A DNA stretch of 64,000 nucleotides. It comes from Marasmius tenuissimus (taxonomy: Eukaryota; Basidiomycota; Agaricomycetes; Agaricales; Marasmiaceae). The stretch covers positions 1 through 64,000 of the forward strand of contig JAQOTA010000033.1 in the NCBI GenBank assembly GCA_029532415.1. Reading direction: 5' to 3'. Positions within the stretch are counted from its first letter, which is position 1. Every line of letters begins with the position of its first letter. The notes under the pieces were generated by a model. That model was not told the DNA's origin. It worked only from the letters and a program-made list of their open reading frames with translations, and made no database searches. The position numbers and the translations under genes were made by a program. Below, in pieces: positions 7,183 through 38,234 of the stretch.

Positions 7183-10100
7183 ATGAGCACGGTAACGACG
7201 CCCAGCGATAGCACAGTCAGTTGGGTCACAGCGCAGGACCGCGAATTCGACCAAGATACTTTCGATTTCGACGGTACACCCACCATGTCTTCCAACAACA
7301 CTTCACCCAACGAAACCTCGCCTTCCCTCAACACGTTCGTCGACAATCTCGACCTGCTGATCTCGTATTATGAATCGCCGCCGCACATTCCTCTCGGGTT
7401 CTCCGAGCGGTTGAACCGGGCGTTGGTCGAGTTTGAGGATGGGGACTGGAGAAAGACGAGTATTCTGAGGACGTTGGGCAGGATAGTCGGCAGAATGAGA
7501 AGAGCCGAGGGAGTTTTGCGGGATAATGGGATCGTTCTGCCGCCTTACGAGGACGGCGATTTCGGGCAGTCACAGGAGAAATTGCACGGGAAGGATATGG
7601 GCGATTGGCCGTCGGATTGGTCGAGGAAGACTGCAGCTGCCGCGACCTCTCATTCTCGCCGAATCTCTCCGGCACTCAACCTCGGCGACCTCCCCAACTT
7701 CCCTCACAGAAACGCCAGCTCTCGAAGCGCATCTGCCAGGACTAGCGCGTTCGGCAGGACTCCCTTCAGTGCTGGCCACGTCGTCCAAACGAAAGACGAG
7801 ATCGATTATCTGAATCATCATCACGCTCATCCTTATCCCAGCCCTCCCTCTTACCCGCCCAATCCGTACCCAGCCATTCACTCCGCAACACATCCTTCAT
7901 CTAACGCCCACGACACACAGAACCAGATCGAGCAGCGTGAAAAGTACTTTATCCGGAATACCACCAATTCCGGTCCCTCCGTCTCAGCTCCCCCAACTTC
8001 CCATATCGACTACGGCATCTGTCCACGTTGTCTGAACAGAGTCACAGACGTTATGGCCGCCAGTCGAATCCTCGATTTCTCAATGGGTTCAGAAGCAGGT
8101 ACTCCTGGTTCTCCTCTCGTCGTGGCCAGTGGTGGCGCTCTCGCGACAGCTGCCATGGAGTCCGGTCTTAGTGCGGTGGAGGAACTTCGCTTGCTCAAAG
8201 CACAGGTGCAGGATGTGGCTAGGGTTTGCAAAGCTGTTGCGGATGGAGATTTGAGTCAGAAGATTACCGTTCCCGTGCAGGGGATGGTCATGGTCACGCT
8301 CAAGGATGTTATCAATACTATGGTTAGTCTTCTGTCTCTCGTTTTGGACTGTACTAATCGTTCTCTCGTTGTAGGTCGACAAACTCGGACAATTCGCAAA
8401 GGAAGTCACTCGTGTCTCCCAAGAGGTCGGTACGGAAGGCAAACTCGGCGGTCAAGCTCTCGTTCTCGACGTCGAAGGGACATGGAGAGAGTTGACCGGT
8501 GTCGTCAACAAACTAGCTGCCAATTTGACTAGCCAGGTAAGTCAACTTTATTCCTCTTCTCATATTCGCTTTACTAATTATTCCTTCTCATAGGTCCGCT
8601 CCATCGCCAAAGTAACCAAAGCCGTCGCTCTCGGAGACTTGTCCAAACAGATCGAAGTCGACGCTCGAGGTGAAATCCTGGATTTGAAGAACACTGTACG
8701 TCTCCTCCCTTACATCCCCTTCCTTCCTCTCACTAATGCTCTCGTAGGTCAACGGAATGGTCGTCCGACTCCGAGCTCTCGCCGCAGAAGTCACCCGTGT
8801 CACCCTCGAAGTCGGTTCCCAAGGAAAACTAGGTGGTCAAGCCAACGTCCCCGACGTCGAAGGCGTCTGGTTCGAATTAGTCCGAAACGTCAACCGCATG
8901 TGTTCGTCCATCACCGACCAAGTCAGATCCATCGCTATCGTCACCACCGCCGTAGCTGGTGGAGATTTGACCCAGAAGATTGAGATGCAGGTCGAGGGAG
9001 AGGTGGCTACGTTGAAGAAGACGGTCAATAACATGGTGAGTGTTCCCTTTCTCTTTTTCCTGTTTCGAGCTCGTTCTGACACCCCCGATAGGTTGACCAA
9101 TTAGGAGCATTCGCATCAGAAGTAACTCGTGTGGCTCTCGAAGTCGGAACGCAAGGTATCCTTGGAGGTCAAGCACGAGTTGAAGGTGTTCAAGGTACCT
9201 GGGCCGATTTGACTAGGAACGTCAACGTTAGTCTTTCTCTCTTCGTCTCTCCCTTCCTTCTCTTACGGTTTTTGCCTCGTAGAAAATGGCCTCAAACTTG
9301 ACAAATCAAGTCCGTTCCATCTCGGAAGTCACCAAAGCCGTCGCACAGGGGAATTTGAGCAAGTTTGTAGAGGTGGATGTGCAGGGGGAGATGCTGGATT
9401 TGAAGGAGACTGTGAGTGTCTATTTCGTTTGTTTTTCGTTCTTCGCTATGGTCTGGTTATGGGTGATGGCCTACTGGTGTTTGTGCTAGCACCGGCACTG
9501 GTGTTGACGACGTTGACGGTGGTCAGTCCTGACCAGGAGCCGATACCATTCACGCTACAGCTGGCTCTTGGCTTCTTGGAAGACCTCGAGCTGAACGTGT
9601 CGACGTTCGTGTTGCGACCGTAGCTGGTACTCGTGCTGACGCTGGTGGCCTACCCATTCTCTTCCTCGTTTCTCACTTCTTGCATACCTTTCGCTTCCCT
9701 ACGCTTGATGACGAGCGATACTAACCTCTCCTACAGGTCAACTCCATGGTCGTCCAACTCTCCACGTTCTCCAACGAAGTCACCCGAGTGTCCCTCGAAG
9801 TCGGAACGGAGGGTATCCTCGGAGGTCAAGCCTTCGTACCCGACGTCCAAGGAGAATGGAAGGTACGTCCAACCGTTGGGTAGTAGGGACAGAGAACGAG
9901 CACTCATACTTCCCCATAGTCCCTCACCGACAACGTCAACCTGATGGCCATGAACTTGACCAACCAAGTCCGTTCCATCGCCGAAGTCACCAAAGCCGTC
10001 GCTTCAGGTGACTTGACCAAGAAGATCGTCGTTGATGTCAAGGGAGAAATCGCCGATTTGAAGGAGACGGTCAACGAGATGACGGAGAGTTTGAGTGTTT

Positions 10101-13045
10101 TCGCTGATGAGGTACGGATGTTTTGTTTTGATTTCGTAGCGGTTGATACTGATTTTCTATGCCTGTTTGTAGGTCACTCGGGTGGCTCGTGAAGTCGGCA
10201 CGGAAGGTAAATTGGGAGGTCAAGCCAGAGTTGCCAATGTTGCTGGAACGTGGAAGGCCTTGACGGACAATGTGAACGTTATGGCCAACAACGTACGTTC
10301 TTCCATCTTTCGTTTCCTTGTAGCTTACACTAACGACTTATCCTTCCCTAGTTGACGCTCCAAGTCCGAACGATCGCTGTAGCGACTACCGCTGTCGCTC
10401 GAGGAGATTTGACACAGAAGATCGTAGGGGTCTCCGTCAGCGGAGAGATGCTGAACTTGGTCAACACGATCAACGATATGATTGACCAGTTGTCGTGAGT
10501 ACAACCTGCTCCCCCTCCTCTCCTCGTCTGTATTCACTTTCACTCCGTGCAGAATCTTCGCCGTCGAAGTCAAGAAGGTCGCTCGAGAAGTCGGAACAGA
10601 GGGTAAACTCGGTGTCCAAGCCGAAGTCGGGAACGTCCAAGGAATTTGGCAGGAAATCACGTTCGTCCCCAATCTCCCTCTCCTCAATTCCTCGTAACTA
10701 AGTCTTTCTCGTTGGGTTAGCCTCTCCGTCAACACTATGGCAGGCAACTTGACCACCCAAGTTCGTGGTTTCGCCCAAATCTCTGCAGCGGCTATGGACG
10801 GCGACTTCACTCGGTTCATCACCGTCGAAGCTAGTGGAGAGATGGATAGTTTGAAGACGCAGATCAACAATATGGTCTTCAACTTGCGGGATAGGTAAAG
10901 CCCCCCTTGTTACTTCGTTGGGGAGTATGAACGAGTTGCTGACCTTCTCTCGCCGTTTACAGCATCCAGAAGAACACTGCGGCCAGGGAAGCTGCCGAGT
11001 TGGCGAACAGGAGTAAGAGCGAGTTTTTGGCGAACATGAGTCATGAGATTCGGTGAGTTTTTGGTTCTCCCTTTGCTCGAGGCTGGCGGGGTCTTCGTTT
11101 TGGCTTCCTCAAGCCCGTACTGGTGGGCAAGGGCGGTTTTGCTTTCGGATTGCCAGTGCCTCCTTCGCTATCCCTTTTTCAAGCCCTACAAACGACGAAG
11201 TGTACTGATGCGATGTTGTTACCCTCCAGAACCCCCATGAACGGAATCATCGGAATGACAGAACTCACCCTGGACAGTGACTTGAACAGGTCACAGAGGG
11301 AGAGCTTGCTCCTCGTGCACTCGTTGGCCCGGTCGCTGCTGTTGATCATTGACGATATTTTGGATATCTCGAAGAGTGAGCTGGTGATCCTCGCTTGCGC
11401 GTATGCAACTTTTTTGTTAACTATACCTCACCACAGTCGAAGCTGGTCGTATGACGATGGAAGCCGTCTCCTACTCCCTCCGTCAAACCGTTTTCGGTAT
11501 CCTCAAAACTCTCGTCGTCCGAGCCTCCCAAAACAACCTCGATCTCACATACGACGTCGAACCCGACATCCCTGACCAGCTCATCGGTGACTCTCTTCGT
11601 CTACGACAAGTCATCACCAACTTGGTCGGGAATGCCATCAAATTCACCCCGAGCAAGGTTACACGCAAGGGCCACGTCGCATTGAGCTGTCGGTTATTGG
11701 CTAGTGACGACCAGAGCGTAACGTTGGAGTTCTGCGTGCTGGATACGGGTATCGGTATTGCGAAGGACAAGTTGAACCTGATCTTCGATACGTTCTGTCA
11801 GGCTGATGGGAGTACGACGAGGGTGCGTTGTTTTCTTTTTTGTTTCGAAATGAACTTGACCTAACCTATTGGTTTCTTTAGGAATATGGAGGTACCGGTC
11901 TTGGTCTCTCCATCTCGAAACGGCTCGTTTCCCTCATGCAAGGCAACATGTGGGTTGAGTCTGAAGTTCAGAAAGGATCTCGGTTCTTCTTCACCATCAC
12001 CTCCCAAATCTCGCAACCTTCTCTCGAGAACACCTTACAGAAGATGGCACCGTTCGCGAAGAGGACTATACTCTTCGTGGATACGCTGTACGACAAGACG
12101 GGTGTCGTAGACCGAATTACAGAGTTGGGTCTGAAGCCATTCGTGGTACACGAGGTCGGAACGTTGGCGGATAAGGAGCAATGCCCTCATATTGATACGA
12201 TTGTGGTTGATTCATTAGCTGTGGTATGTCGTGCTCACTCTTTTTACCCCCTCTTCTGGTTGCTGAATATTCTTTTTCGTAGACGGAAACGATTAGGGAA
12301 ATCGAACACCTACGGTATATCCCCATTGTCCTCCTTGCACCTTCGATGCCGCGCCTCAACCTGAAATGGTGCCTCGACAACTCTATCACCTCGCAAGTGA
12401 CCACACCGGTGACTGCGCAGGACTTGTCTTCTGCTCTGGTCTCTGCACTGGAATCGTCTACGGTGTCGCCGGTATCTGCCCCCAACGATGTCACGTATGA
12501 TATCCTACTGGCGGAGGACAACTTGGTCAACCAGAAACTCGCAGTGAAGATACTAGAGAAGTACGGGCATAGCGTTGAGATCGCGGAGAATGGTTCGCTG
12601 GCGGTGGAGGCGTACAAGGCCAGGATTCTGCAAGGCAGACCGTTCGATATCATTCTTGTAAGTTGGCCCTTCCTTTGACCTTGGCTTGTGTTCACCTTTT
12701 ACGATATAGATGGATGTATCGATGCCGTTCATGGGGGGTATGGAGGCTACGGAGCTGATTAGGTCGTATGAGATGCATAAGGGATTGCAGCCCACGCCGA
12801 TTATTGCGCTTACGGCTCATGCTAGTGCGTATCTCCTTCGTCTTTTTACTCGATGCCTATGCTTACTGTTACGTCCTCTCTTTCCAGTGATTGGTGACCG
12901 TGAGCGTTGCCTCCAGGCCGGAATGGACGACCACATCACGAAGCCTCTGAGAAGAGCGGACTTATTGAATGCGATCAACAAGCTCGCTGGGGAGAGGAGT
13001 GTTGGCAACAAGCACATGAGAAGACCGGCGATTACCGCTTCATGA
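7183..13045 (+). CDS. NIK1: Group III hybrid histidine kinase (NIK1/OS-1 type)
   Basis: Cytosolic hybrid histidine kinase. In other fungi this class feeds the Ypd1-Ssk1 phosphorelay that controls the HOG MAP kinase and is the target of fludioxonil-type fungicides. I count 19 exons: 7183-8322, 8375-8536, 8594-8695, 8748-9035, 9092-9226, 9283-9411, 9737-9862, 9920-10111, 10173-10292, 10352-10494, 10553-10660, 10721-10894, 10963-11052, 11230-11375, 11437-11822, 11882-12223, 12283-12657, 12710-12824 and 12888-13045. They sum to 4431 nt (1476 aa). The low-complexity N terminus is followed by seven visible HAMP-type repeats with the core QVRSIAxVTKAVAxGDL. Then come the H-box [17 protein letters not shown], the N-box [31 protein letters not shown], and a C-terminal receiver with the acceptor aspartate in DIILMDVSMP and lysine in ITKPL. 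There are no membrane segments. All key residues are present, so the gene looks functional. Confidence 0.96.
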
Positions 13046-15250
13046 TCGTGAAGGCGCTCAGTGCCAGGACTCCGGGTGCTGGGAATCTGGAGTTGGAGTT
13101 TCCGTTTTTGCATTCCCCTTCCTTCCCTGTCTCCCTGCTTGCGCATGTCGTTCATCTCCCTTCTCTCCTCGTCCGTCTTCACCCTTTTCCATACGCCTTC
13201 CCTCCTTACCTTCCATAATCCTCTACCGACCTCATTATCGCTCGCTCATCTGCTTTCGAGTTGGATACCCTCCACGACCTCCCCCCATCCATAATGTCCC
13301 CTGTACATACCACTGTTTACATCTTTTACCCTTACTAGTCTCTCGCTTCGTCATCATGCATCATCTCCATTAACGTTACTAGTTTTTACGACGACGTACT
13401 GTGTACTACCTCCACCTTGCTTGACTCGTCTACATTTTTTACATACATACGCTGCCCTCGTTGTTACTTGTCATTGTCATTTTGTACTACCAACCCTACC
13501 AAGTTTGCATGTTTCGTTCTCGTATAATATTAATCCCTTTGCATACGTATGTGAACAAAGATTTACAGCTGCAACCCGTCTGGTGTGGTAGGACTTAGCT
13601 TCGGGGGCACGGAGGTCAGGTGTGCACCGCCTCTACCGCGTGGTAAGGTCCGTAACCCGTTAGGGGTGGTGACGTCGGAACTTCTTATCTTCAAACCACC
13701 ATCTCTACTCCGAAAAAGTTACTTTCGACGATCATCGCTTTTCAGGACTCGAAATGTAGTGATAGCCTCATTTTCTGTATCAAAGGCCTTACGAGTTGAC
13801 TCGGGATTGGAGGCACGACCAGGAGACTTCCTCAAAATGCCGATCTGGCTGCCAAATGACAATGATTGGTCTTGTAGCCTCTGTAACTAAACTCGTGGGT
13901 AAGGACATATACGGTCTCCGGGTAAGTCTCGAACTCCTTTTCTTCCTTTTCTAAACGTTCCCAAACCCTTTTGTGGGTTCTCTCTCGTCGTAATACCGAA
14001 GGTGGGGAACGAGAATCAAAACGTACATTCCAGTTGCTCGAGTTTTCGTGGGTTTCTTGAACGCTAAAGCACCTCGCCTTGATGATACCGAAAATTACTA
14101 GTACCAAAATTCCAGGCGGACAGGCCTCAGTAGCCGCTGGCGAGGTAAAACCAGGTGGCGAAGATATCGATACGAACGTCGTTCCCTCGCAGACCTCACC
14201 AGGATCTCAGCATACCTTCTTCCTGTTCCTAATAATCTTTTGCACGCGAAAGATAGATGCAAGACCGTATCATCCAATCCCGCTTGGATCTTCCGACATC
14301 GACTGGTATCCTTTTGCTATACGTTATCTCCGCTGCTACTTGAGCATGGATAGAGTTGAGGTGGGAAGCTAGAGGTAGTCGTTAGGTTGAACCAAATAAT
14401 AGTTTCGCTGGCTGAGGGTGTCCTAAGTCATAGCTAAGAGTGGGTCACCGGTCATTCTGTCCTCTTCATACTTTTCGTGACTCAACTCGCACTTACCAGG
14501 GCTTCGCGATGGTTCCCCCAATGATTCGCCTTCAGGAGATCAATTCGTTACCAAATGTTTTGTGTACGGCATTCGGGAAACACATACGGGTGATATACTT
14601 ACATAGATCTCTACATATCATCGTTGATGATTTCTTTTTCGCTGAGAGTCTCTACAGCAGTCGGGTGTCTATACCAAGGAGTGGGCGAGGTTGGTGGCAC
14701 AGAAAAGTAAAATATTTTTGGCTGTACCTCGGGAGCTGAGTCTTGGTTCTAATTGATAGTGGGTTGAAAGTAACAAAAGACTTTTGTCTCGACTAATATA
14801 CCTCGAAATAGCGCGCAATTCGAACGAATGCTGTACAAGGCGGCGTGAATATGGTGTTCATCACCTGGGTTAGCAGCGAGCTATTCTCTACCCGTTACTA
14901 GCAACGCCCATCAACGACATCCCGCTGCTGAAGCGCCCTTGATTGAATTCACTTACTGGGTTTATAAGCCCGCGAGAGGACGGTGATTGCATACCTATTC
15001 CCCATTCTAACTGCTGTAAATGCCCTTCGATCTTGTGACCGGGAGGGTGAGTTATTGTTTTTAGCTCCATAAAGCCTCGCTGATACGAGCACACTGCGAT
15101 TCAGTTGATCTCTCTTGTTCTACAAATTCTTTTACATGGTTCGTAAAATGGTTACGCACGAAGTCGATTGAACCAACCTCAACCTTACAGGCGCTTTCTG
15201 TCTCCTTCTCACCACGGTCTGGTCGAAGCGCCGTTCATTCGAGAAAAAAT
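13046..15250. other. Histidine kinase 3' region and gene-free stretch
   Basis: The first 500 bases are pyrimidine-rich and probably hold the 3' UTR of the kinase gene. Beyond that there are only unconnected frames of up to 100 codons without recognisable domains or convincing splice sites. Confidence 0.45.
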
Positions 15251-29850: not shown

Positions 29851-29857
29851 GTTCCAA
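29851..29857. repeat. Left target-site duplication GTTCCAA
   Basis: Seven bases identical to 31477-31483, flanking the inserted element. Confidence 0.8.
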
Positions 29858-31476
29858 GGAAATCGAGGCTAGGTTTCCTCAAAAACGGTGCAAAAAAACT
29901 TAAGTTTACTTACCTTAGCTTACTTCCCTTGTCTGATGTACGCAAGTAAAACTTGAGTAACGAGACAAGTTTCGTCCTGAGGGAATAGGAAGCAATCTCA
30001 AGTCATTCTTGAGGTTGGTCTTGAGGGAACAAGGTGGAGTGCCTCAAGGATGACTTGAGAGTAACTCAAATCCTCGCGTTGAGGGTAGCTCAAGTCGTCG
30101 TTGAGGGTAGAGCTCAAGTTGTTGTTGAGGGTGGCCGCGTCTCAACTCAAGTTGCGCATTAGATAAGTATGCGTAGAATACAATGAGATGTTGAATGATA
30201 CTGGAAGACAGAAAATGTGAGTGTGAGCAATGAGCGAGGCAAAAAGGGACAGAGTGCTCACTTGAAAGGTTCTGTGGGTGAGGCCATGAGATTGTTGACG
30301 AGACTGTGAAGAAAAGTCATTAGGGCACATACAAAGAATAAAAGAGGGAACACACCTATAGGTACCCTGTGAAGGCCCAGCGGCGAGCATGTATCCTACG
30401 TATTTTGCTTTTTTTTCTGTTGTACTCTACATTGGAGTGAGCCATGGATCGGAAGAGGAGAATACTACTTCATACATTACAATGCTTCAGAATAATACAT
30501 TTTGGGAGATTTTTGGCTTGCAAGAGCGGTGTTCCCTTGTACTCAAACCACTCCTCATGTCCTGCCTGTCCAACAATGAGAAAAGAGCAATGAGTCAAAA
30601 AGAGCCAACTTACAACAACACACCAATTGCTACCCTTGTAAACCCTGAACATTCCATCTTGAGGTGCACACACAACTCTAGAATCACAAATTAGAATGAA
30701 AAGCAGAGTTGATTGAGACATGTACCTGCTTTGTGGCAGTTCAGTGTTGGCCAAGAGCCAATTCTTGTCCATAGCATGTGCTTGCAAGTCTTCCAGTGTT
30801 GCTCAAATCGTCTGTCAGTGTTTACGGACCTCCCAATCTTCAGAAAGATCCTCACTTTACATCTCCCTTCCAGCATATACACATTTCCCACAGTGTCCTT
30901 CATGCTTGCTCTCCTGTGGCGTCGACTGCAGTATTGTGTTTCAATGGATCATGTGTCGCAAGCGTACGGGCAATGAAGGCAACAAGGAGAAAGTATCGGG
31001 GTGAGATATCAAGCAGAGGAACATGTAGCCTGGTTTTTCAATCACATATATGCTCGCCTTGAGCAATTTCTTGCCCACGTTCGCTCAAGTTCATAATTTC
31101 CCTTATTCATGTTCATACTCTCAAGTTTCTTTATCATTCACTCAAGTCCACATTTTCCTTCACTCAAGTTCATTTTCCCCTTTTCTCAAGTCCATACTTT
31201 ATGTTTGCTCAAGTCTGACTTCTTCTCTCATACTCAATTTTCACTCAAGTTCCCTACCTACATTAGTGCAGAGTAAATCTCAAGTTTTGCTCAAGCTGTT
31301 CTTAAGATTTCCTCAAGTTGTTCCTTCAGATATTTTTGAAGTTGATACTCAGGTCAAATCTGATTTTGAGTTCTACTACTTGAGCAACATACTTGAGGGT
31401 GAAAACTTAAGGTAGAGGGCCCAAGGGGCCTCAAAGGTTTTGCCCCAATTTTGAAGGGAAGGTGGCCATGGAGTAG
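29858..31476. mobile_element. 1.6 kb element with inverted ends carrying a GIY-YIG gene
   Basis: The element lies inside exon 1 of MYND copy B, between perfect GTTCCAA repeats. Its left end begins GGAAATCGAGGCTAGG and continues with TTTCCTCAAAAACGG. Read inwards, the right end has CCTTCAAAATTGGGGCAAAA at the matching distance, so the ends are imperfect inverted repeats. A truncated copy of the left-type end at 38090-38234 starts at the same base, which fixes the boundary. Both flanks are packed with CTCAAGT/ACTTGAG subterminal repeats (about ten between 31080 and 31330), and the left flank has a tandem unit containing GTTGAGGGTAG. The only recognisable gene is a GIY-YIG/T5orf172-type protein on the minus strand. 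No known transposase is visible. Confidence 0.85.
30470..30903 (-). CDS. GIY-YIG / T5orf172-type nuclease-domain protein in the element
   Basis: Read on the minus strand. The first exon starts at 30903 with MKDTVGNVYMLEG and contains FLKIGRSVNTDRRFEQH, the conserved core of the T5orf172/DUF1766 branch of the GIY-YIG superfamily (VY..., KIGRS, R, H). A GTACAT donor (about 30723) and TTCTAG acceptor lead to an exon reading ELCVHLKMECS. A second intron leads to GHEEWFEYKGT, matching the family's C-terminal HxEWFE motif, and the frame stops at 30470. Exact splice points in the middle are uncertain. In Agaricomycetes such domains occur in many copies with unknown roles. Here the gene is the sole cargo of a transposon-like element. 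Confidence 0.65.
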
Positions 31477-31483
31477 GTTCCAA
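31477..31483. repeat. Right target-site duplication GTTCCAA
   Basis: Seven bases identical to 29851-29857. The sequence following it continues MYND copy B in frame. Confidence 0.8.
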
Positions 31484-33423
31484 CAGCGCCATCGATGTTT
31501 TTAATCCAGGCTGTCAGGTCCAAGGGGTATTCGAAGCCATTTGCGCACTTTCCGAGAAGATGAAGCTGTACCCCCAAGTCATCTCGGCTCAGCTACGGTC
31601 GCGCCGGGAGGTCATATCTCCATGCATTGTTTTCTTTCTCCGCACCACACTCGTCAACGCATTAAAACAGCGGCTACCCTCCTCAATACCTCCCACAAAT
31701 TTAAACATATTCAATCACATCCTCTTCCTCGCCCCTCGTCTTCTTGCAAATCCTCTCGATGACCTGAAAGAGATCAAGCATGCCTCACCAACTCTCCAAT
31801 GCCTTGTTGCTCAGGCTTTTTTGCGTCAACACCGAGAGCCCAACTATCGGAAGGTGGTTGGCATTACTCCTCGACCTCTTTCTATGTGATCAAATATCTG
31901 TAGATGAACTCCAGATGCTAACATCCTGCAATTCTTTCCCCTTGTACAAGCTGGACAAGTAGGTCGGGAAGCTATTGCTTGCTTGGACGTCTAAACTCTC
32001 AGACTGAGCACCTCACCACGATGGATTCAATGGAACCTAAAGACTTCAAAGCCTGTTTTGAAGTCGTCATGTCGATTCCACAATGTTTCCTCGAAGTCAA
32101 AGTCCATGCCATCAGTCCGTTACACGTAGAGGAAACAAATTCACAGTGGACGCTTCGGTCGACGATTAGGGTCTTGACAGTATTACTCCACAAGTGGAAA
32201 TCACTTCAGAGCACTCTGAATGGCAGCCTCGAGGTACTTCAGGCCCATGGTCGACGCACTTTTCAGACACCAATGGTCGAGTCAGGAATCCTTCAGGCTT
32301 TGTATTACGCGCAGGAGTGCTTCTACATAATGGAGCAAAGTGAACATCGTCACGATTGGGAGGAATGTTCGTTCATCACAACGGCGGCCATGGTTTTGGA
32401 TCATATCACTAAATTCATTGTCCGTCATGAAGTGCTCCGTCCGTTTAGACGGGTTATCCGTCAACTAATGCTATCCGATTGGAAGCGCTTATTACTCGGG
32501 ATCCAAAGTTCACCACCATTGAAGAGAGCATGGACGAACCTCCACAGTAAAGGCGAGGAGATCTATGACATTTGTTGCCGTCTGAAGATTGAGGGCGCTA
32601 TGTGCAACTACAAGGAGGTGAGTGGCGCTGAAACTCTGTGTATCGCTGTTGTATTTATGCATATCACCTAGTGTACATCATCCGAGGCTAACTACCGTGA
32701 AGAGGGAGCTGTGTCTCGCTACCTAATTTGTTCTATAGGATGCTTAGCGCACACATGTTGCTCTTCCGCCTGGCGAAGGACTGATTGGAAAGACAGACAC
32801 AGGACAGAGTGCTCTAGTATCGCGCAATCTGTGCAGAGTAGGTGTCAATACCGTCTGATTCCCTAGCTCTCTAAACCACTCTTCTTTTTAGATGGACTTC
32901 TATCCCTGCCTCGCGTTAACGTGGGGATATTTGCCTCGGTGCTTGAGGACTACATTTGTGTCTACCACCAGATACTCACGTCAATGGTCAAATCATTTCG
33001 TGACTCAAACTGTGCTGCTTTTCTTGTCCGCCGAAATTCAATTCTCCGCGTGAACTTCGACCAACCTAATATCCCTTTCATCAATGACGGCCGAGTCCTT
33101 GATATTGATTCCATGATTAACGTTATCGGGTCCACCAAGACCAAATCCGAAACAGAAACTCTCGGCGATCCGGGCTTAAGATTTAACAAGAAGAGCATGG
33201 GAGAGGACAAGCTCGAACGAGATCATGTTCATAGCAATGTTCCCTCTCCGATCTGGTCATTCGTCGTACCCTCTTGAGACTGCGATGGGACTCCCATTTG
33301 TATTATAGAGCTCGAGAACTGTGATCCTGGCGAGGAGTTACTGCATGGGCAGCTAGAGAGGGAGGAGACGTGGATGAGGTCAGTTCCCCTTTACTATCAG
33401 TACTTATTACAATTATCATATCT

Positions 33424-38090: not shown

Positions 38091-38234
38091 ACCCTAACCT
38101 CCTAAGACCCGTGTATCTTGAACTGGATTTTTTGAAGTCCAAACGCTCAAGTAACCACTTGAGTCTAAGGTAAGGTAAAGGTAAGGACCTCAAGTATTTT
38201 GGCCCAATACTGAGGAAACCTGGTCTCGATCTCC
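38090..38234. mobile_element. Truncated end of the same transposon family as 29858-31476
   Basis: Read on the minus strand from 38234, it begins GGAGATCGAGACCAGG and continues TTTCCTCAGTATTGGG. This matches the left end of the full element from its first base. CTTGAGG and TTACCTT stretches follow in the same order, then a palindromic CTCAAGTAACCACTTGAG. No GIY-YIG coding remains, and the other end is missing. Confidence 0.7.

Follow-up and report, generated by a model that had tools for sequence, protein, structure and literature searches.

A short KDZ-type transposon with a decaying, putative GIY-YIG nuclease gene in Marasmius tenuissimus, and GIY-YIG genes near other KDZ and Plavaka transposases

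Introduction

What moves a transposon-like element whose only recognisable gene encodes a nuclease? Such an element lies in the window analysed here, a 64,000-nucleotide stretch of the Marasmius tenuissimus genome (assembly GCA_029532415.1, contig JAQOTA010000033.1, positions 1 to 64,000), and a preliminary description of that stretch had suggested that the encoded GIY-YIG protein might itself be the mobilising enzyme. We searched the host genome (71,056,785 bases in 70 contigs, each labelled here with C and a number; the window is C63:1-64000) for the ends of the element, for its gene and for the genes of transposases that might act on it.

Boundaries and ends of the element

The preliminary description had placed a clean insertion inside a perfect 7-bp GTTCCAA duplication, and this is correct to the base: the element begins at 29858 with the left tip GGAAATCGAGGC and ends at 31476 with the right tip GGAGTAG, between the two repeats. 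The host exon reads in frame when the element and one repeat are left out, as had also been claimed, and a 192-aa open frame spans the rejoined flanks. The features are as follows:

29851..29857, unstranded: left target site duplication GTTCCAA, perfect 7-bp
29858..31476, + strand: non-autonomous KDZ-type transposon, 1619 bp, whose ends recur in the 33 further paired copies (34 in all; in one the right tip is altered) and whose right ~520 bp are 84% identical to the 15.4-kb KDZ copies
29858..29930, + strand: left terminal block, ~72 bp, family-wide, with tip GGAAATCGAGGC
29952-30151, 31058-31397 and one at 30658, unstranded: CTCAAG/CTTGAG subterminal hexamers (n = 23), candidate transposase-binding repeats
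30473..30598, - strand: piece of GIY-YIG exon c (HEEWFE...), which has five bases fewer near its acceptor than in relatives
30625..30678, - strand: piece of GIY-YIG exon b, with one base more than the relatives compared, which disrupts the frame
30726..30903, - strand: GIY-YIG/T5orf172 exon a (MKDTVGNVYML...FLKIGRSVNTDRRFEQH...NCHKA), open
30957..31476, + strand: right terminal region, common with the long KDZ copies, with tip GGAGTAG
31477..31483, unstranded: right target site duplication GTTCCAA, perfect 7-bp
38214..38234, - strand: a further left terminus of this family, standing alone, with 2 mismatches over the 21-bp tip

The ends had been called imperfect inverted repeats, and this stands only in part: imperfect inverted similarity is present further in, but the outermost ~16 bp of the two tips have no inverted-repeat match (judged by eye). 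The hexamer CTCAAG/CTTGAG occurs 23 times in the 1,619-bp element; 1000 mononucleotide shuffles gave 0.75 on average and at most 5. Of the 23, 22 lie no more than ~420 bp from an element end, an arrangement that resembles a terminal array of protein-binding repeats. The second, truncated end that had been noticed at 38234 was recovered, since 38214-38234 on the minus strand fits the 21-bp tip pattern; it is a truncated end only, and no complete second element was seen there. With up to 3 mismatches allowed, this pattern is found at 45 places in the host genome, some of which are probably due to chance (the reversed pattern is found at 4). The proposal that the interrupted host gene encodes a MYND protein was not borne out, in that six host-side Pfam queries gave no MYND match at E up to 1; a MYND-like string (C..C...W..RHRTEC) was seen on the host side at about 32725-32815, by eye only.

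Related copies in the host genome

Searches with the left 350 bp and the right 157 bp of the element gave 41 and 37 matches, respectively, and when these ends were paired, 34 copies between 806 bp and 34 kb long resulted. Five of them belong to the window element's own group, 20 measure 0.8-2.0 kb and 9 measure 7.9-34 kb. A sixth member of the window element's group, C7:920188, has no right end that we could find. The target site duplication is exactly 7 bp in 30 of the 34 paired copies and 8 bp or longer in none; the other four have duplications with 1, 1, 2 and 6 mismatches, the last being C28:945391-979366, whose right tip is altered. Counting shared ones once, 29 of the exact 7-bp duplications are distinct, and no target consensus can be seen in them; the same tips with exact 7-bp duplications are found across the copies in which GIY-YIG is the only gene recognised (below, the GIY-only copies), the 0.8-2.0-kb copies and the 15-32-kb copies. 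The preliminary description had proposed such a search, and its outcome supports a real mobile family: the ends are shared, the duplications are 7 bp long and a GIY-YIG gene can be recognised. Among themselves the 15.4-kb copies on C14, C28 and C32 show 98-99.5% identity along almost all of their length, so the family has been recently active. Two of the largest copies, C49:41345-69561 (28.2 kb) and C41:155523-187961 (32.4 kb), both have exact 7-bp duplications. Two copies at C54:547422-548806 and C54:551805-553189, which have opposite orientations and share the same duplication and flanks, are probably a local inverted duplication and not two insertions.

The long copies encode a KDZ transposase

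KDZ elements are the Kyakuja-Dileera-Zisupton DNA transposons. The 15.4-kb C14 copy has Pfam matches to CxC2 (PF18803, E=2.4e-29) and KDZ (PF18758, E=5.5e-13) on the same strand as its GIY-YIG gene. Matches to KDZ/CxC2 mark 12 copies of the family, namely 8 of the 9 long paired copies and 4 with one end not found; the 10.5-kb copy C41:393295-403825 has none. We scanned 22 segments of the C14 copy that are free of stops and unspliced, a set in which a domain cut by an intron could be missed: beyond KDZ, CxC and T5orf172 there were only non-significant matches (E above 0.02), and no hAT or reverse transcriptase domain was found. The family as a whole therefore has the transposase domain, the CxC cluster and a duplication within the 7-8 bp range, and because the long copies carry KDZ/CxC2 genes and the duplications are 7 bp, it is assigned to the KDZ DNA transposons. 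Its tips are GG..AG, unlike the 5'-CA..TG-3' of published Kyakuja. The window copy is not an autonomous KDZ element: among the matches listed it encodes no transposase, and no KDZ, CxC2 or Plavaka match lies within 12 kb of the GIY-YIG exon in any of the six GIY-only copies.

The long copies vary in content. At element positions of about 8100-14900 the C14 copy has long open frames, several of them opposite to the KDZ strand, for which neither Pfam nor NCBIfam gave a convincing match. Most of the right half of the long copies is missing from the 7.9-kb C19 copy, and the C34 copy has at about 8776-11490 an extra 2.7-kb segment with a 213-aa frame that is not in the C14, C28 and C32 copies.

The GIY-YIG gene and its state in the different copies

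The C14 gene has three exons (element positions 924-1089, 812-874 and 661-761), and its stop codon lies ~660 bp from the left terminus. Its spliced 109-aa protein matches T5orf172 with E=3.5e-11 (residues 10-88) and MUG113 with 1.1e-5, and window exon a is 62% identical to it, so the recognition of a GIY-YIG gene in the window was sound. By this profile match over the domain the product is a putative GIY-YIG/T5orf172 nuclease. By sequence the protein had no PDB relative at E up to 10, and outside the host genome it had one candidate relative and none at E of 1e-3 or better.

Exon a is present in 11 of the 12 KDZ-bearing copies, the C18 copy having only an exon c remnant with a stop. The three-exon matches are stop-free in 10 of these 11; in the C41 copy a match that crosses an intron contains one TGA. 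The state of the gene is different in the GIY-only group. That GIY-YIG is the sole recognisable gene had been observed for the window copy, and it is likewise so in all six members of the group, window copy included; in five of these six the gene is disrupted. The lesions are a premature stop in exon a and 16 nt lost from exon c (C23), a premature stop in exon a and 2.26 kb between exons a and b (C63:123672-128064), loss of one exon a base (C30), an altered start region followed by an in-frame stop (C19:2696595-2698729), and one base added to exon b with five removed from exon c (window); the aligned exons of C7:920188 have no lesion. The 20 other short copies show only pieces of the gene, none of which reaches upstream of residue 25 in the 109-residue protein; the GIY-YIG motif (residues 4-21) is thus absent from them, and many of their exon c pieces carry stops. 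Exact 7-bp duplications flank 19 of these 20, so that, unless the gene was lost after insertion, movement does not require an intact copy of it in cis.

Comparison of exon a between C14 and the six GIY-only copies gave dN/dS values of 0.08-0.19 over 50-53 codons, which indicates that the gene was under purifying selection during the separation of these lineages. Among the GIY-only copies themselves dN/dS ranges from 0.04 to 0.87 (10 of 15 pairs reported), and pooling them gives a divergence of 0.077, 0.054 and 0.115 for the first, second and third codon positions and of 0.087 for non-coding sequence. The slight excess at third positions and the lesion-free C7:920188 gene may weakly suggest some constraint after truncation. 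Among the KDZ-bearing copies on C14, C50 and C41, the exon a differences (3-7 per pair) are all non-synonymous and do not support constraint there.

GIY-YIG genes beside other transposases

All distances and counts that follow for KDZ/CxC2 and Plavaka are among the matches listed (for KDZ, part of 165 matches). With the 109-aa protein as query, 40 exon a loci reach E of 1e-3 or better. Of these, 11 belong to KDZ-bearing copies of the present family and 6 to the GIY-only copies, 7 lie by a second KDZ family, and 16 have no listed transposase within 12 kb. In the second KDZ family (on C9 at around 330-341 kb, and on C12, C30, C33, C36, C44 and C10) the GIY-YIG gene lies 7.5-7.8 kb from KDZ/CxC2 on the same strand at all seven loci and is 55-63% identical to the query protein; the C9 locus is also 6.7 kb from a Plavaka match. 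We considered whether this second family shares its tip with the present one and rejected the idea, as the tip pattern was not found near any of the seven loci.

A Pfam T5orf172 search of the host genome found 23 loci, only two of which (C7:5600040 and C3:4350255) are shared with the exon a list. One of the 23, C7:5870795, is 2.5 kb from a third KDZ/CxC2 gene, six are 3.1-3.6 kb from Plavaka, and 16 have neither within 12 kb among the matches listed. The Plavaka-linked loci form two groups of three; Plavaka-linked units lie, for example, around 1263-1271 kb and 362-370 kb on C27 and 5340-5349 kb on C7. At three dispersed places a Plavaka-linked stretch of 2.8 kb is 99% identical, each with Plavaka 3.1-3.6 kb from GIY-YIG, so that the two genes seem to have been dispersed together. 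In two comparisons, each of 23 loci, uniform placement by chance would put 0.48 and 0.44 loci beside a transposase of these superfamilies, against 7 and 7 observed; as the copies are interdependent, the evidence is better counted by lineage, of which there are five. Viewed from the transposase side, 20 of 95 listed KDZ/CxC2 loci have GIY-YIG within 12 kb (12 in the present family, 7 in the second and 1 in the third), and at the sensitivity of this exon-by-exon search, which could miss diverged genes, none was detected at the other 75.

Two of these places have features of their own. In the region C7:5868000-5876500, which contains C7:5870795, the KDZ/CxC2 locus is a different one, and the GIY-YIG gene convergent with it belongs to another subtype. 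At C27:1268500-1271300, one of the places of the 99% identical stretch, a Plavaka-linked GIY-YIG gene has a long repetitive N-terminal frame.

Proposed origin of the short element

Taken together, these observations lead us to the following reading, to which we give a probability of about 0.9: the window element is an internally deleted, non-autonomous KDZ copy that was moved in trans, and its GIY-YIG gene is an accessory that is now decaying in the short group. The KDZ transposase of the long copies would recognise the common ends, excise the element and insert it by a 7-bp staggered cut, which would give the GTTCCAA duplication. The ancestor of the six-member group would have lost the stretch from just upstream of the GIY-YIG gene to the right end, and the shortened ancestor would then have spread in trans. 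GIY-YIG may have been retained as the gene nearest the left terminus, in or next to sequence that is probably required in cis, because it is located about 660-1,090 bp from one terminus; in the short group it would simply be carried along with the left terminal region, once functional and now decaying. In the long copies the protein is likely to be a conserved accessory, plausibly a nuclease that acts on transposon or donor-site DNA. Because this genome also has long relatives in which a transposase accompanies the same GIY-YIG gene, the latter is probably a companion gene in these copies and not the engine of transposition.

The strongest point against this simple account is that no KDZ-bearing copy was found for the window copy's own left-end subfamily. 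The left 350 bp of the window copy have a near-full-length match in just six copies (window included), none of them near a listed KDZ match, so a source acting in trans would be a relative that shares the ~72-bp left end and 84% of the right end.

Alternative explanations

Could the GIY-YIG protein nevertheless be the mobilising enzyme, a new kind of transposase for which KDZ is only cargo in the long copies? The six copies in which it is the sole recognised gene, the presence of exon a in nearly all KDZ-bearing copies and the purifying selection between lineages are all in agreement with such a role. Against it, KDZ transposases form an established family whose target duplications are equal or almost equal in length to those seen here (PMC12730594), the 20 two-ended short copies lack the GIY-YIG motif while 19 of them have exact duplications, the gene is broken in five of the six GIY-only copies, and most listed KDZ/CxC2 loci (75 of 95) have no GIY-YIG match within 12 kb. 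We consider this explanation very improbable, and the mobilising role suggested in the preliminary description is rejected: long copies with the same ends encode KDZ and CxC2, short copies with a broken or partial GIY-YIG gene have exact duplications, and the observations can be explained without GIY-YIG as sole mobiliser. Of the two findings that the description had set against its own idea, longer relatives with a transposase do exist, but absence of the GIY-YIG gene from most copies does not hold for the transposase-bearing ones (exon a, 11 of 12). To assignment of the family to hAT, Polinton or Penelope-like elements we give next to no credence. Families of hAT7 also give 7-bp duplications (PMC12730594) and GIY-YIG is known in Penelope-like elements (PMC5718144), but the C14 segments described above, where a domain interrupted by an intron might escape detection, have no hAT or reverse transcriptase match.

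Two further explanations concern only the role of GIY-YIG and are compatible with KDZ as the transposase. If the protein were an essential second subunit, for example with one nuclease for each dissimilar tip or strand, its linkage in 11 of the 12 KDZ-bearing copies, its constant position on the same strand in the second KDZ family, the additional cases beside KDZ and Plavaka and the fact that the two tips are not mutual inverted repeats would all be accounted for. The many KDZ/CxC2 loci at which it was not detected within 12 kb, at the sensitivity given above, argue otherwise, as do published Kyakuja, which also are without inverted repeats and for which the term "GIY" is absent from the main text of the paper (PMC12730594); we think an essential subunit improbable. 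That GIY-YIG is pure cargo or a captured gene with no role for the element is rather unlikely in our view. No role of the protein has been demonstrated, it was not detected near those 75 listed loci, 16 of the 40 exon a loci have no listed transposase within 12 kb, and the three close KDZ-bearing copies differ in exon a by non-synonymous changes only. These points are to be weighed against the low dN/dS between two diverged lineages, the occurrence of the same protein at 55-63% identity beside the second KDZ family, and its recurrence by two transposase superfamilies above uniform chance (7 of 23 in each of the two comparisons, with the copies not independent).

Within the KDZ reading we also suggest, tentatively and with somewhat less than even confidence, a more specific role, by analogy with the TnpB-like nucleases beside bacterial transposases: GIY-YIG may be a recurrently recruited and selected second enzyme of KDZ and Plavaka transposons. 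It would cut DNA during or after transposition (at donor or empty sites, or on the second strand at dissimilar tips) and so raise copy number, and at one time the GIY-only copies may have been a source of it in trans. Should the linkage prove general, it would point to a nuclease step in the KDZ/Plavaka life cycle, which is directly testable.

Relation to known systems

Fungal KDZ and Plavaka transposons are known to carry TET/JBP genes, and the present GIY-YIG gene, an accessory unlike TET/JBP, recurs beside transposases of both groups. A single sub-threshold TET/JBP match was found in the host genome. In the literature searched, whose scope did not include the original KDZ paper (Iyer et al. 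2014), we found no published report of GIY-YIG in KDZ or Plavaka elements; among the papers listed for GIY-YIG in Agaricomycetes, all dealt with mitochondrial genomes, judged by title or abstract. A close comparison is with Kyakuja of Agaricomycotina, which have a KDZ transposase, 7-bp duplications (in two families), tips without true terminal inverted repeats and accessory genes, and which differ from the present family in having 5'-CA..TG-3' termini and TET/JBP accessory genes in place of GG..AG and GIY-YIG (PMC12730594). Zisupton and a Dileera, members of the same transposase superfamily, have 8-bp duplications according to the same source, whereas those of the present family are exactly 7 bp. 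Penelope-like elements and Terminons are likewise mobile elements that encode a GIY-YIG nuclease (PMC5718144 and PMC6431247); unlike them, the present family has no reverse transcriptase in the scanned C14 segments and has ends of the cut-and-paste type.

With its 29 distinct exact 7-bp duplications and copies of 0.8 to over 30 kb, the family offers clean material for the study of KDZ end recognition. Its short copies are like MITE-like internal deletion derivatives, which are short copies with both ends and target duplications and without a transposase, but the GIY-only group differs from these in that it retains one recognisable, decaying accessory gene. As a separate observation, when the six GIY-only copies are compared, transitions make up 106 of the 130 variable columns in non-coding sequence, which is compatible with methylation or RIP-like decay.
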